DNA of 64,000 nt from NCBI GenBank assembly GCA_015065085.1, contig SVQW01000002.1:196197-260196 (forward strand), given 5' to 3'. The translations under genes and the position numbers were made by a program. The stretch comes from Oscillospiraceae bacterium. GTDB taxonomy: Bacteria; Bacillota; Clostridia; Oscillospirales; SIG627. Below are positions 3,432 through 27,302 of this stretch, piece by piece. The notes under the pieces are model-generated. The model searched no databases. It was not told where the DNA came from and saw only the letters and a list, made by a program, of their open reading frames with translations. Within the stretch, counting starts at the first letter, position 1, and each line of letters starts with the position of its first letter.

Positions 3432-6122
3432 TTAATTGTTGTTCCATTCTCCGCCCATGGCGTTTTCAACCTGAGCTACGGAACGTACAACAGGTGCAAA
3501 GTAGTAGTATGTGCCGTTATAGCAGATGTAGGAACGAGCCACCAGCTCCTGTGGCTTGTCGCCCTCGGGAATATCCCATACAACGGCAGTGTAGGTAGCA
3601 GAGGTTTCAGTGCTGGTGTAAATATTCTCAGCTCTTACATCTGCAAAGCTTTCTGCGGGAACATTTGCATGTGTGAAGTTGCTGGGAGTAACATCATCAG
3701 CAAGCTCGGATACAGGAATTATGATAGTACCTGCATAGAATATATCGCCTGCATTCTCGGTATACTGAATCTGCTCAAGAGCAATACCGTCGGTGAAGTT
3801 AACAGATGTACCGAATCTGAGACCCTGGGGCTCGGTAGTTCTTATCTGTGCACCCAGCATGTCACCGTCGATTTCAACGGGAGCGGCATCCTGCTTGAGC
3901 TTAACGGAAATACTGTCGATGTAGAAGTAGCAGTTGCTGTTGCTTCTTACAGTGAGTGTAAGACCCTTGAAGTAGCCGTTCGCATCTTTAAGCTCGGTAA
4001 ATGAGTGAGAAAGCGAAGCGAGGAACTCTTCGGTAAGCTCAATGTCTACCCACTGGTTCATCTTGTCCAACTTCTGTAAGTCAAATGCATTCAAGTTGCC
4101 ATAGTTTAACCAACTGGTGACATTATATTGACTGAATCTTACCTGAGGGTATTCGGTAGAACTGTTGGCACCATTGGGATTCTCTGCGGGTGCCCACATA
4201 CGAATGGTAACGGATTCAATGTCTTTTGCGGGAATCTGGGAACGCAGGAAGTCAAGGTTTATAGTTGCACCGGAAGAACCTGTGCTTGAGATCTTAAGAA
4301 CAGTGCCGTTGTAAGAGGTGTTTTTAAGCTCGTCGGGGATATTTGCGGAAGTATATTTTACTGCTGTTCCGCCGTAATGAGGCTTATTGCCCGATAATGT
4401 ATTTATAACATCGCAGGGGAATTCGTCGGTTTCCAGCAACTCAACCTTAACGCTGTCAATCAAGAAGTAACGAGTAGTAGCGCTACTGTTGAAAACACTC
4501 AGGTCCAGACCGGTGAGATAACCGTTTTCATCGGCAAGGTTTATGAACTTGTAATTGGTAGATAACATATCATTGGTTATTCTGAAATCAAACCACTGAT
4601 CAAGCTCGGTTTCTGTATTAAGAGTGTAGAACTTTGTGGTGCTGTTATACATTATACGGGTTGTAGTGCCGGTTGCGGTAAGTCTTATCTGTGAAGAAGG
4701 AGAAGGAATATACATTCTCAACACTATCGAATCTACGCGGTTTGCGGGTATCTGCATTCCGCTGAAATCAATGGTAGCCGTTGTACCGGTATCTGCTGTT
4801 CCCTTGAACTGCCATACATAGTCCTCAAATCCGCTTACGCTGGAGGGGGGATTATCCTTGTATATTGCCATAGAGGGCTTGTAGGGGGGATTGTCCTGAA
4901 CCTCTGTCTGAGGTGCGAGCTTAGGCATTTTGGTGTAATCCAAAGTTGATTCGTCAACGCCTCTTGTGTACTTAACACTAATGGTATCGATATAGTAGGG
5001 GTCAGAGGTGTCATTACGACGGCTTATAAGGTTGAAGCGGTCGAGATAGCCATCTCCATTTATATCGAGTGAATTCATGTTCATATCGGTTGATTTGACT
5101 TTTACATCGCACCAGCCCTTTGTCCAGGTATCGGGGAACATGTCAAAGCCGCTCTGACCTGTACTAACACCCCACAGCCATTCGCCCTTTGTAGTACGTG
5201 CAATTCTGAGGTTGGGTCCCCAATCGGTGGAAGCATCCTCAGGTGCATAAACGCGGAAGATAAAGTACTCAATTTCGGAGATTTTGATTTGTTCGTCGAA
5301 TTCTATCATTGCACCGACAGAACCAAGACCGGTAGAACTGGGAGCAACCTTCCAAACGCTTTTGCTGAAGCCTTCGGGGAGTCCTTCTGTTATTGCCTTA
5401 TTAAGACCAAGCTTGGTAATTGTACCGCCAACGTAGAAGTTGTCATCGGTATCATTCTCACCCTTGGTGCCGTCAACGGTAAAGTTAACATTTGTGTCAT
5501 ACTGTTCGGGATAAAGCTCGACAACAACCGAGTCAAAGTATACTGCGCCAGTCTTGTTATTTGTTCTTGTACCTACCTCAAAACGGCCGAGATACTCATT
5601 GGTAGAAAGCATCGCGAAGCTGTCAGAAGCCGCTTCAAAGGTTGAAGAGTCGAGGGTGAATTCAACCCACTGGTCATAACTGGTGGAAGGATAATTCTGC
5701 ATGGTAACCCATTGATCCACATCAGTAGCGTCGTTGATACGGAACTGTGAGGAACCGGCAGCAGTCTCAGAATAAATTCTGAATGTGATGGATTTTACCT
5801 GTTCAATCAGAATCTTTGCTGCGGACATATCGATAACGGGGGAAGCGCCGGAACCGTTAGGTGTAGCCTTCCATACGTCGCCTGTAAAGCCCTCGGGTAC
5901 ACCTGCGGCTTTTGCCTCTTGTTCAGTGTAATGAGTCAGGCTTGCACATCCCAGTCTGTACTCGTACGGGTTACCTTTCGAGGTACTTTTTTCAAAGGTT
6001 ACACTGCTTGTTACATCTACTGTTGTTGTTTCCAGATCGGCTATGCTCAATGCCATAGCGCCGGAAACAGTCAAGAGCATAAGCATTGCAACCATTGCAA
6101 GTATTACAAGGTTTCTTTTCAT
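3432..6122 (-). CDS. Large secreted protein with four beta-sandwich-like repeats and a shared C-terminal domain
   Basis: This 896-residue protein starts with a classic signal peptide (about 1-23, ending AMA). Four divergent repeats of about 175-190 residues follow (roughly 31-205, 206-395, 396-570, 571-755). Each carries a GF...VWK-like segment, a run resembling V.SI.FR.Y, a QW(V/F)-type segment before a loop of the form NGYL, and a closing (Y/F)(Y/F)(I/L)DSV.V strand; these resemble carbohydrate-binding jelly rolls. Residues about 757-896 form a separate domain with GAQIR, LRFGTS and YYFAPVVRSV. That domain recurs at the C-terminus of the protein at 25374-27302. No catalytic motif, SLH domain or sortase signal was seen. 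A glycan-binding or matrix role is inference. The start has GGAG 9 nt upstream, and the leader carries two palindromes. Confidence 0.85.
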   Translation of the reverse strand: MKRNLVILAMVAMLMLLTVSGAMALSIADLETTTVDVTSSVTFEKSTSKGNPYEYRLGCASLTHYTEQEAKAAGVPEGFTGDVWKATPNGSGASPVIDMSAAKILIEQVKSITFRIYSETAAGSSQFRINDATDVDQWVTMQNYPSTSYDQWVEFTLDSSTFEAASDSFAMLSTNEYLGRFEVGTRTNNKTGAVYFDSVVVELYPEQYDTNVNFTVDGTKGENDTDDNFYVGGTITKLGLNKAITEGLPEGFSKSVWKVAPSSTGLGSVGAMIEFDEQIKISEIEYFIFRVYAPEDASTDWGPNLRIARTTKGEWLWGVSTGQSGFDMFPDTWTKGWCDVKVKSTDMNMNSLDINGDGYLDRFNLISRRNDTSDPYYIDTISVKYTRGVDESTLDYTKMPKLAPQTEVQDNPPYKPSMAIYKDNPPSSVSGFEDYVWQFKGTADTGTTATIDFSGMQIPANRVDSIVLRMYIPSPSSQIRLTATGTTTRIMYNSTTKFYTLNTETELDQWFDFRITNDMLSTNYKFINLADENGYLTGLDLSVFNSSATTRYFLIDSVKVELLETDEFPCDVINTLSGNKPHYGGTAVKYTSANIPDELKNTSYNGTVLKISSTGSSGATINLDFLRSQIPAKDIESVTIRMWAPAENPNGANSSTEYPQVRFSQYNVTSWLNYGNLNAFDLQKLDKMNQWVDIELTEEFLASLSHSFTELKDANGYFKGLTLTVRSNSNCYFYIDSISVKLKQDAAPVEIDGDMLGAQIRTTEPQGLRFGTSVNFTDGIALEQIQYTENAGDIFYAGTIIIPVSELADDVTPSNFTHANVPAESFADVRAENIYTSTETSATYTAVVWDIPEGDKPQELVARSYICYNGTYYYFAPVVRSVAQVENAMGGEWNNN

Positions 6123-6200
6123 GATATGTACTCCTTAAAATAATTTTTGTGCGAAGCAAAAAGCCGTTTGGAGACACATAAGACATAATAAAGTGATATT

Positions 6201-6243
6201 GTGTACAGTAGTACTGTACACAAGTAAAGGGTACCCTTTACTT
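6201..6243 (-). promoter_or_regulatory. Two abutting perfect palindromes in the 5' leader of the secreted repeat protein
   Basis: Positions 6222-6243 form a 22-nt perfect palindrome centred on AAAGGGTACCCTTT, with outer AAGT/ACTT arms. Positions 6201-6221 form a second one, with arms GTGTACAGTA and TACTGTACAC around a single G. They abut without a spacer. Both lie downstream of the promoter at 6265-6293, so both would be in the mRNA. The same arrangement, in the same order, precedes the gene at 25374. Confidence 0.85.
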
Positions 6244-6264
6244 CGCAAAATTTATACATTTTCG

Positions 6265-6293
6265 ATTATAGTACAATTTTTACATTTTGTCAA
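6265..6293 (-). promoter_or_regulatory. Consensus sigma-A promoter
   Basis: Read on the minus strand it is TTGACA (6293-6288), 17 nt, then TATAAT (6270-6265), a perfect consensus. Transcription would start near 6258, leaving a leader of about 135 nt. Confidence 0.9.
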
Positions 6294-25129: not shown

Positions 25130-25158
25130 TTGAAAAACATAAAAATGTGTGATATACT
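25130..25158 (+). promoter_or_regulatory. Sigma-A promoter of the secreted repeat protein
   Basis: TTGAAA (25130-25135) and TATACT (25153-25158) are 17 nt apart. Transcription from about 25165 gives a leader of about 210 nt that contains both palindromes. Confidence 0.8.
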
Positions 25159-25223: not shown

Positions 25224-25268
25224 TAAACCAAAGGGTACCCTTTGGTTTATGTGCAATGTATTGCACAT
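25224..25268 (+). promoter_or_regulatory. Tandem palindromes in the 5' leader
   Basis: Positions 25224-25249 form a 26-nt perfect palindrome with AAAGGGTACCCTTT at its centre and TAAACC/GGTTTA arms. Positions 25249-25268 form a second one, with arms ATGTGCAAT and ATTGCACAT around GT. In gene orientation the order is the same as at 6201-6243: the GGGTACCC palindrome first, then one that opens with GTG and closes with CAC. Confidence 0.85.
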
Positions 25269-25373
25269 CGTTTTTCCGATGTAACATCCGGGCGGATTTT
25301 ACATAAAATTTGGGACAAGTGTTTCTGATACAAAACACAATCCAAACTAAAAAATTATCAAGGAGAGACAAAA

Positions 25374-27302
25374 ATGAAAGCAAAAAATCTTTTCAGACTT
25401 TCACTCTTAGTTGCAGTTCTTTGCGCGTTGCTTGCCATCACCACACTGGCAGCAGACCCCGCATACCCTGCAAAAGTCATCACTTTTGACGGTACAAACA
25501 CTGCCGGCTTCGGTTTGCCCGTTGTTTACAGCACTTCCAGATCTAATGCCAGCTTTTTCGTAAACGATAACGGCAATTTCGTAAACCGATTTGAAATAAC
25601 CGGTTACGGTGATGACACCGACTTTGCATACGGTGTAAGTACAGGTTTCAGTCTTAACGATTACCCCTATATGAAAATCAAGTCAAGCACAACTTTTACA
25701 GTACCTGTTGTTATTTATCTTAACGGCTGGAGCATCAACTCAGTTCTGTATAACTGGACTACCGGAGACAAGGTTACAACCTTTAACTTCTTCAACGGTG
25801 ACGGGTATACCGCTTGCGACGCATCTTTCAATCAGTCGGATGCAACAAGTTTAAATTTTTCAACCATAGACTTCAGAGTGCTCGGAAACGCATCAAGCGA
25901 CCAGTCAAAGAGCATTGGTACACTTGATTTTGAGTATATCGCTTTCTTCCATACTTATGATGAAATGATGGCTTACAACGGTCCCGAAGCAAAAATCGGT
26001 GAAAACGAAAAATTCAACGAAGATAATTTCAGCATTGCAACTTATGCAAACTCCTTCGTAGGCGGTGCAACAGTTTCCGACGTTGTAATAGCTGACGGCA
26101 AGCTCAGCGGTAAAATCAACAACTTCAATGTTACCGTTCCTTATGAAGTGAAGTACCCCACAAAGGTTATCGCTTTTGACGGAAACGAAGATAATGTTCA
26201 AATCAACCTGCCTGTTCTTTATAATTTTGCAAACACCGATGCAAGCATTTATGTAAAAGAAGGTAAATTTATCAACAGATTCACCAACGATGTTGACGTG
26301 GCTACTGATTTTGCATTAGGTGTTACCGAAAGCATCAAGCTTAACGATTATCCTTACATCAAGGTTAAATCCAACACCGACATGACTGCGGCAATACAGT
26401 TTTACGTTAATGGAACCAATTATGTTACCACTTTAAGAAACTGGGATCAGCAAGGCGAAAAAGTACAGACCTTCAATTTCTTCAGTGGCGAAGGATACAC
26501 ACCTTGCAGCGCAAGCTTCTCCGGCAACGGTGGTAGCTTTGAAGGTGATATCTACTTCACAAGCGCTCAATTCCATGTATTGGATAACTACAATATCTCT
26601 AATGGTTTCCTTGATATCGAGTACATCGCATTCTTCCACAGCTACGACCAGATGATGGCTTACGAAGGTCCCGAGGCTAATACCGATCCTTTCAACGAGG
26701 CGACTTTCTCACTTGAAAAATACACAAAGGGATCTTTTACAAATGGTAAAGATGCTGCCATCTCTACAATGACCATCGGCGACGGAGTTGCAACCGGCAG
26801 AATCGGCGCAAGCAATTATGACATTGCAGTAACCATTCCTTTTGAGGCGAATGATTACGGCATGACAGTTGAAAATCTGGGCGCACAGATTCGTGTTGAT
26901 GACGTTGACGATGAAGCCATCAGCGAAAAGGCTCTGCGTTTCGGTACAAAGCTTAACTATGACACTGCAAACACAGCTCTTGAAGATGTTGTTTACGGTG
27001 CGATAGTAGGCACTCCCGGCTCCACTCCCAAGAAGGAATACGGTGCAAACAATGCTCCTCTCAACTTCCACAATGCGAAGAATTTCGAGACTAAAGAGGA
27101 CGGAATTTACTTCAACACTGTTGTAACAGGTATTCCTGCCGATCAGATCACAACTCAGGTTAAGGTAACTCCTTTCATTACCTACACTGTTAACGGCGGC
27201 AACTACACCCGTTACTTTGCACCCATCATACGCAGTGTACAGAATGTATTGGATGCACTTGCCGACAACGCTGAAACCGAGTGGGATGTCGAAGAAATCT
27301 AA
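25374..27302 (+). CDS. Secreted protein with two beta-rich repeats and the shared C-terminal domain
   Basis: This 642-residue protein has a signal peptide ending near TTLA (about 27). Two repeats of about 230 residues follow (about 30-255 and 256-495). Both open YP(A/T)KVI(T/A)FDG, share LNDYPY(M/I)K(I/V)KS and contain an EYIAFFHSYDQMMAY-like segment. The C-terminal domain (about 499-642) carries LGAQIR, LRFGT and YFAPIIRSV and matches that of the protein at 3432-6122. No enzyme motif, SLH or sortase signal was seen. The repeats look like carbohydrate-binding sandwiches, so a glycan-binding or matrix role is possible but unproven. GGAG lies 9 nt before the ATG. Confidence 0.85.
   Translation: MKAKNLFRLSLLVAVLCALLAITTLAADPAYPAKVITFDGTNTAGFGLPVVYSTSRSNASFFVNDNGNFVNRFEITGYGDDTDFAYGVSTGFSLNDYPYMKIKSSTTFTVPVVIYLNGWSINSVLYNWTTGDKVTTFNFFNGDGYTACDASFNQSDATSLNFSTIDFRVLGNASSDQSKSIGTLDFEYIAFFHTYDEMMAYNGPEAKIGENEKFNEDNFSIATYANSFVGGATVSDVVIADGKLSGKINNFNVTVPYEVKYPTKVIAFDGNEDNVQINLPVLYNFANTDASIYVKEGKFINRFTNDVDVATDFALGVTESIKLNDYPYIKVKSNTDMTAAIQFYVNGTNYVTTLRNWDQQGEKVQTFNFFSGEGYTPCSASFSGNGGSFEGDIYFTSAQFHVLDNYNISNGFLDIEYIAFFHSYDQMMAYEGPEANTDPFNEATFSLEKYTKGSFTNGKDAAISTMTIGDGVATGRIGASNYDIAVTIPFEANDYGMTVENLGAQIRVDDVDDEAISEKALRFGTKLNYDTANTALEDVVYGAIVGTPGSTPKKEYGANNAPLNFHNAKNFETKEDGIYFNTVVTGIPADQITTQVKVTPFITYTVNGGNYTRYFAPIIRSVQNVLDALADNAETEWDVEEI

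Follow-up and report, generated by a model that had tools for sequence, protein, structure and literature searches.

Tandem hairpins in the leaders of secreted-protein genes

In the 64-kb stretch of DNA analysed here (the window) two genes for secreted proteins carry in their leaders two perfect hairpins in direct succession, of which the promoter-proximal one (P1) has a GTAC loop and the second one (P2) follows without an unpaired base. The same double hairpin recurs in further leaders of the source genome and in other Bacillota, mostly ahead of genes for exported proteins. The hairpin structure is well supported. As to its function, we infer that the element may help to control the production of surface proteins.

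A preliminary description of the window had reported tandem palindromes between near-consensus promoters and two secreted proteins with a common domain, and all of these points were confirmed (Table 1). In both leaders P1 precedes P2, and both promoters are good matches to the sigma-70 type. By eye, each protein has an N-terminal signal peptide, and the two have the C-terminal domain, here called LGAQIR, in common (BLASTP E 1e-8). A scan for abutting perfect hairpins, with stems of at least 7 bp each and at least 16 bp in sum, returns exactly these two sites in the 64 kb (at 25224 and 6243), whereas 60 order-1 random 64-kb sequences contain no such pair. The 14-mer core of P1, with up to two mismatches, is observed twice in the window versus 0.31 times expected, a count of two being reached by 2 of 100 shuffles. 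The RNA folding z values of the two elements are -5.5 and -5.1.

Table 1. Positions of the leader elements, promoters and genes within the window
Feature	Position	Strand	Remarks
Promoter TTGAAA-17-TATACT of gene 25374	25130..25158	+	10/12 consensus matches
P1 hairpin TAAACCAAAGG-GTAC-CCTTTGGTTTA	25224..25249	+	11 bp; upstream of gene 25374-27302
P2 hairpin ATGTGCAA-TGTA-TTGCACAT	25249..25268	+	one base common with P1
P3 hairpin ATGTAA-C-ATCC-GGGC-GGAT-T-TTACAT	25279..25304	+	counterparts in four other genome leaders (by eye and alignment)
P4 hairpin GTGTTT-CTGATAC(A)-AAACAC	25319..25338	+	carries 11-mer TTCTGATACAA (25323-25333)
Shine-Dalgarno AAGGAG	25360..25365	+	outside hairpins; read directly
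Secreted protein, 642 aa	25374..27302	+	C-terminal LGAQIR domain
Promoter TTGACA-17-TATAAT of gene 3432-6122	6265..6293	-	12/12 consensus matches
P1 hairpin AAGTAAAGG-GTAC-CCTTTACTT	6222..6243	-	9 bp; upstream of gene 3432-6122
P2 hairpin TTGTGTACAGT-ACT-ACTGTACACAA	6199..6223	-	11 bp; two bases common with P1
Possible enclosing stem TGCG(AAG) 6247-6241 / (CTT)CGCA 6156-6150	6150..6247	-	by eye
Secreted protein, 896 aa	3432..6122	-	C-terminal LGAQIR domain

Copies in the source genome

The genome was searched by pattern, and the loci described in detail come from stretches of it. The core pattern AAAGGGTACCCTTT has five matches in the 2.45-Mb genome and the reversed control pattern none. With AAGNGTACNCTT, in which N is complementary, eight matches are found. 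All eight are leaders of genes for secreted proteins with a C-terminal LGAQIR domain, and in each the element lies between promoter and gene with P1 proximal to the promoter, which agrees with the proposed location in the mRNA leader. Occurrence of the core at random positions had been named as the observation that would speak against the element; all eight cores with complementary inner bases are in leaders of the family. Six copies have G-C as the inner pair, C20:18905 has A-T and C18:14870 has T-A. Of the identical 14-nt core that had been described, a conserved core thus remains, but the 14-mer itself varies and the invariant part is AG-n-GTAC-n'-CT with covarying n and n'. Octamers of the type GGGTACCC occur only 10 times in the genome, six times within the element. 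When tandem hairpins were collected from 146 kb of own-genome DNA chosen without the motif, all five had GTAC in hairpin 1.

The LGAQIR domain is present in 26 copies in the genome. Most of those outside the eight are without the element, as are the longest genes of the family (open frames of more than 2200 aa); C12:19892 resembles a decayed element copy. The suggestion that a family of surface proteins is controlled therefore has to be loosened: the link to surface proteins stands, but it is not specific for the family: the majority of the 26 domain genes do not have the element, and the copies in other Bacillota precede other, mostly exported proteins. The domain, which is unnamed, is a lineage-specific expansion with 26 copies here versus 0 to 4 in the 57 relatives searched. 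Its structure model has a beta-rich fold and the matches to CBM21-like domains are weak.

As a proxy for expression we used codon usage relative to rpsB and tsf, a reference of two genes only, with means of -0.134 for the element genes, -0.239 for the other family genes and -0.420 for the window genes. The element genes are nearer to the codon usage of rpsB/tsf than the window genes (p 7e-7) and than the other family genes (p 0.02). Judged by this sequence measure, the element appears to mark the highly expressed family members.

Architecture and covariation

Hairpin 1 can be written as AAAG-n-GTAC-n'-CTTT, extended by outer arms of arbitrary sequence which are perfectly paired. Hairpin 2 is fully variable in sequence and again perfectly paired. 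The P1 loop is GTAC in 19 of 19 elements, while the P2 loops vary; these loop statistics come from a separate scoring of each element. We aligned 10 sequences without gaps, namely the eight own copies and single representatives of a second genus and a second family. To arrive at this alignment, several loops were cut back to 4 nt, and at the P1/P2 boundary a small number of bases was omitted or entered twice. In the alignment 98.8% of the cells are paired, with changes on both sides in 15 of 17 pairs. Its covariation score is 0.98 versus 0.21 for shuffled and at most 0.24 for slid controls. The flanks around the core are indeed compensating, as had been claimed; the outer arms vary and stay paired. 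Because the arms are arbitrary but symmetric, we conclude that the structure and not the sequence is selected, and that sequence is read at the P1 apex only. Of the earlier alternatives, an RNA structure or a protein-binding site, a simple dimeric operator is disfavoured by arms that are arbitrary yet symmetric. The fixed half-site of an operator for a dimeric DNA-binding protein is absent: P2 throughout and the outer arms change without constraint, and the symmetry is retained.

The two hairpins have 1 to 8 junction bases in common, so that there is no unpaired base between P1 and P2 and the junction should be able to migrate. In 15 of the 17 elements without gap the last base or bases of the P1 3' arm are also able to pair with bases after P2. 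The summed junction overlap amounts to 42 nt versus 12.6 after the downstream sequences were exchanged at random between elements, and none of 20,000 permutations is as high (p < 5e-5). For L173, which was excluded from the overlap script, about 8 nt of common junction bases are seen by eye. For L138 and L173, the P2 stem can form at the expense of most of P1, and in the minimum-energy fold of L138 P1 is lost.

G-U pairs are rare in P1 and P2, at most one or two in about 400 versus 4.9% in terminator-like stems of at least 9 bp, a contrast which is indicative rather than exact because either set was scored with a penalty on G-U. One-sided changes are almost absent from P1 and P2; of the terminator-like hairpins collected by a similar rule from the same genomes' DNA 57% are perfect. 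The distance between the centres of P1 and P2 ranges from 17.5 to 26 between species.

Occurrence in other Bacillota

A covariance model and a search of relatives had been proposed in the preliminary description. They yield two leaders in G017 (same family, another genus), one ahead of a secreted protein of 1577 aa and the other ahead of a protein with Big_2 repeats, and one leader in G262, from a different family of the order, ahead of a signal-peptide protein. The single-genome E-values of these matches (1.8e-4, 0.12 and 0.048) are not decisive alone, and we accept the leaders because of their leader context, the GGTACC apex and the abutting P2. The models R1 and R2 match on both strands because P1 is palindromic, and minus-strand matches were ignored. 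Low-scoring matches (L056-L058, L109-L116, L119-L120, L124, L126, L136, L137) were rejected as they either have no leader context or resemble terminators or coding DNA. We also discarded most matches of AAGGGTACCCTT in 394 genomes of the order: outside the source genome, among the loci examined, a second hairpin is found only in G262, and the rest, mostly coding, look like chance. CTTCTGATACAA is found among the relatives at 57 places among the matches listed, over 196 genomes. A search using the window protein alone gave no match.

The pattern TATAAT N12-42 AAAGGGTACCCTTT was scanned against 84,980 species and gave 18 loci. By one fixed rule an abutting P2 of at least 9 bp is present at 8 of 17 scored places, all of them in Bacillota MAGs or isolates with two Streptococcaceae among them, and the same rule finds none at the promoter-plus-core matches of Bacteroidota, cyanobacteria and Patescibacteria. 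Corresponding, slightly looser queries of viral contigs gave 61 promoter-plus-core matches, none with a second hairpin. Four of the eight other-Bacillota loci have a lipoprotein gene; one of these lipoproteins carries collagen repeats and Big_3, and another is an ABC solute-binding protein. The other four genes code for a BspA-type LRR protein that has a signal peptide, a Sel1-like protein, an EcoRI-type methyltransferase and one protein without assignment. Exported proteins account for about 16 of the 19 element genes; those of L165, L171 and L180 are not evidently exported.

At L165:7311-7400 the P1-P2 unit is tandemly duplicated ahead of the Sel1-like gene. At L171:7681-7998, in a Streptococcaceae MAG, the element stands before the EcoRI-type adenine methyltransferase gene (PF13651). 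In G016 a lipoprotein gene is immediately preceded by a single hairpin, TCGAAAAGA-GTAG-TCTTTTCGA (L108:1501-1545), which is possibly a one-hairpin cousin of the element.

Possible function and relation to known systems

No Rfam 15 family overlaps the element in the window and 14 loci, even at E<=1, which is in keeping with the earlier suggestion that it may be undescribed. The literature matches listed contain no mention of the core in a relevant context.

We suggest that the element acts as a 5' leader RNA with a defined structure, about 45 nt long and usually located 10-25 nt past the transcription start as placed from the promoter. Its two hairpins have perfect stems, adjoin without any unpaired base and have a common boundary which can slide. 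P1 displays the invariant apex AG-n-GUAC-n'-CU, and P2 provides a strong, sequence-free helix; the stacked pair could fix the geometry of the P1 apex near the mRNA 5' end. There a trans-acting factor, be it an RNA-binding protein or the transcription or decay machinery, might recognise the apex, and the outcome would be a higher yield of mRNAs for abundant exported proteins. The simplest routes would be protection of the 5' end from decay or a transcript that is kept productive. We regard it as an evenly balanced matter whether the element is such a 5'-leader RNA, recognised through its GUAC apex and raising the output of exported-protein mRNAs. The RNA as active form, the factor that reads the apex and the positive effect are all three what we infer. 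Nascent or mature mRNA is favoured as the active form because of position, polarity, variable spacing and G-U-bearing neighbours, and a positive role because of the exported-protein targets and the codon bias. More tentatively, and with some doubt, we propose a Bacillota-wide, uncatalogued RNA signal, a sliding-junction double hairpin whose GUAC apex might be read by a dedicated RNA-binding factor or RNA polymerase and which would mark exported-protein mRNAs for coordinated high expression.

The hairpins could also be a plain stabiliser that only blocks 5'-end-dependent decay by RNase J/Y, the GUAC apex being incidental. Hairpins near the 5' end of the ompA and aprE leaders stabilise the mRNAs of abundant exported proteins (reviewed in PMC7509114). 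Our element resembles these precedents in having two hairpins early in the leaders of exported-protein mRNAs, a free Shine-Dalgarno sequence and genes whose codon usage suggests high expression. A pure stabiliser, however, needs neither a fixed loop nor a seamless overlapping junction, and the GTAC loop is conserved while all else is free, also in the five motif-independent tandem hairpins; we therefore consider this explanation rather unlikely. We know of no fixed GUAC apex or seamless junction in the ompA and aprE leaders. Processive antitermination appears improbable to us. In that case the nascent double hairpin would bind RNA polymerase, as HK022 put does, or a NusG paralog such as LoaP, and would carry the polymerase through long genes. 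The put RNA of this enterobacterial phage contacts the zinc-binding domain of the RNAP beta' subunit, has antitermination activity and likewise forms two adjoining stem-loops in the nascent transcript directly past a promoter (putL; PMC9378689), the transcript start of our element being taken from the promoter. But put comprises about 70 nt with a triplex and non-canonical pairs, whereas the element has about 45 nt and almost purely Watson-Crick stems, and the promoter-plus-core sites of viral contigs are without second hairpin. LoaP also uses a small leader hairpin in Bacillota, where a trans-acting factor reads it, as we assume for the element. Its site, however, is a single hairpin with a UNCG tetraloop at biosynthetic operons (PMC12691694), and neither the constant GTAC loop of P1 nor the varying P2 loops are of the UNCG type. 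Moreover, most leaders have no terminator-like site past P2, an exception being P2 at 25224 with CGTTTTT, and the longest family genes are without the element. Attenuation or an intrinsic terminator as general mechanism was rejected, as T5 directly after P2 is found only at 25224 (scan) and in L026 (by eye).

A role at the DNA level would mean tandem palindromic binding sites, a sequence able to form a cruciform, or palindromes that template-switch mutation keeps perfect. It stays in play because P1 and P2 have almost no G-U pairs, as would befit a palindrome at the DNA level but is not usual in RNA; one-sided changes are nearly missing as well, unlike in the terminators of the same genomes. 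Against this, no sequence-reading dimer accounts for arms of arbitrary sequence, the varying P1-P2 spacing provides no fixed helical phase, the polarity relative to promoter and gene is fixed, and P3 and the possible enclosing stem do carry G-U pairs. We thus hold a DNA-level role to be very improbable.

The GUAC-loop hairpin with a seamless second hairpin just past the -10 box is a short, recognisable signature common to otherwise unrelated genes for exported proteins across Bacillota. Should it be functional, it would point to a new reader factor and could serve as a portable leader for controlling surface-protein expression. Its symmetry almost without G-U pairs also makes it a clean test case for selection at the RNA versus the DNA level.

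Other parts of the leader

Two leader types are found in the genome, both with P1-P2. For type one, GCGAAG/CTTCGC is a possible enclosing stem; it recurs in the L006 and L035 leaders, in L035 with G-U. Type two adds P3 and P4. The pattern of P3 is ATGTRA, a one-base mismatch on each side, a variable inner stem and TTACAT, with G-U pairs present. The Shine-Dalgarno sequence is in no leader inside P1-P2. Sub-threshold matches to Gut-1 (RF01706) lie outside the element beside two family genes (L035:3506-3577, minus strand, and L026:3611-3683, plus strand).

The 11-mer TTCTGATACAA occurs 11 times in the genome, always at LGAQIR-family genes, and 0 times in the control. It is also seen at L034 (about 2495-2530) and in the C12, C15, C18 and C20 leaders. 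In most cases it forms the loop of a covarying hairpin ahead of the Shine-Dalgarno sequence. Two copies lie directly 3' of a family gene, before the terminator.
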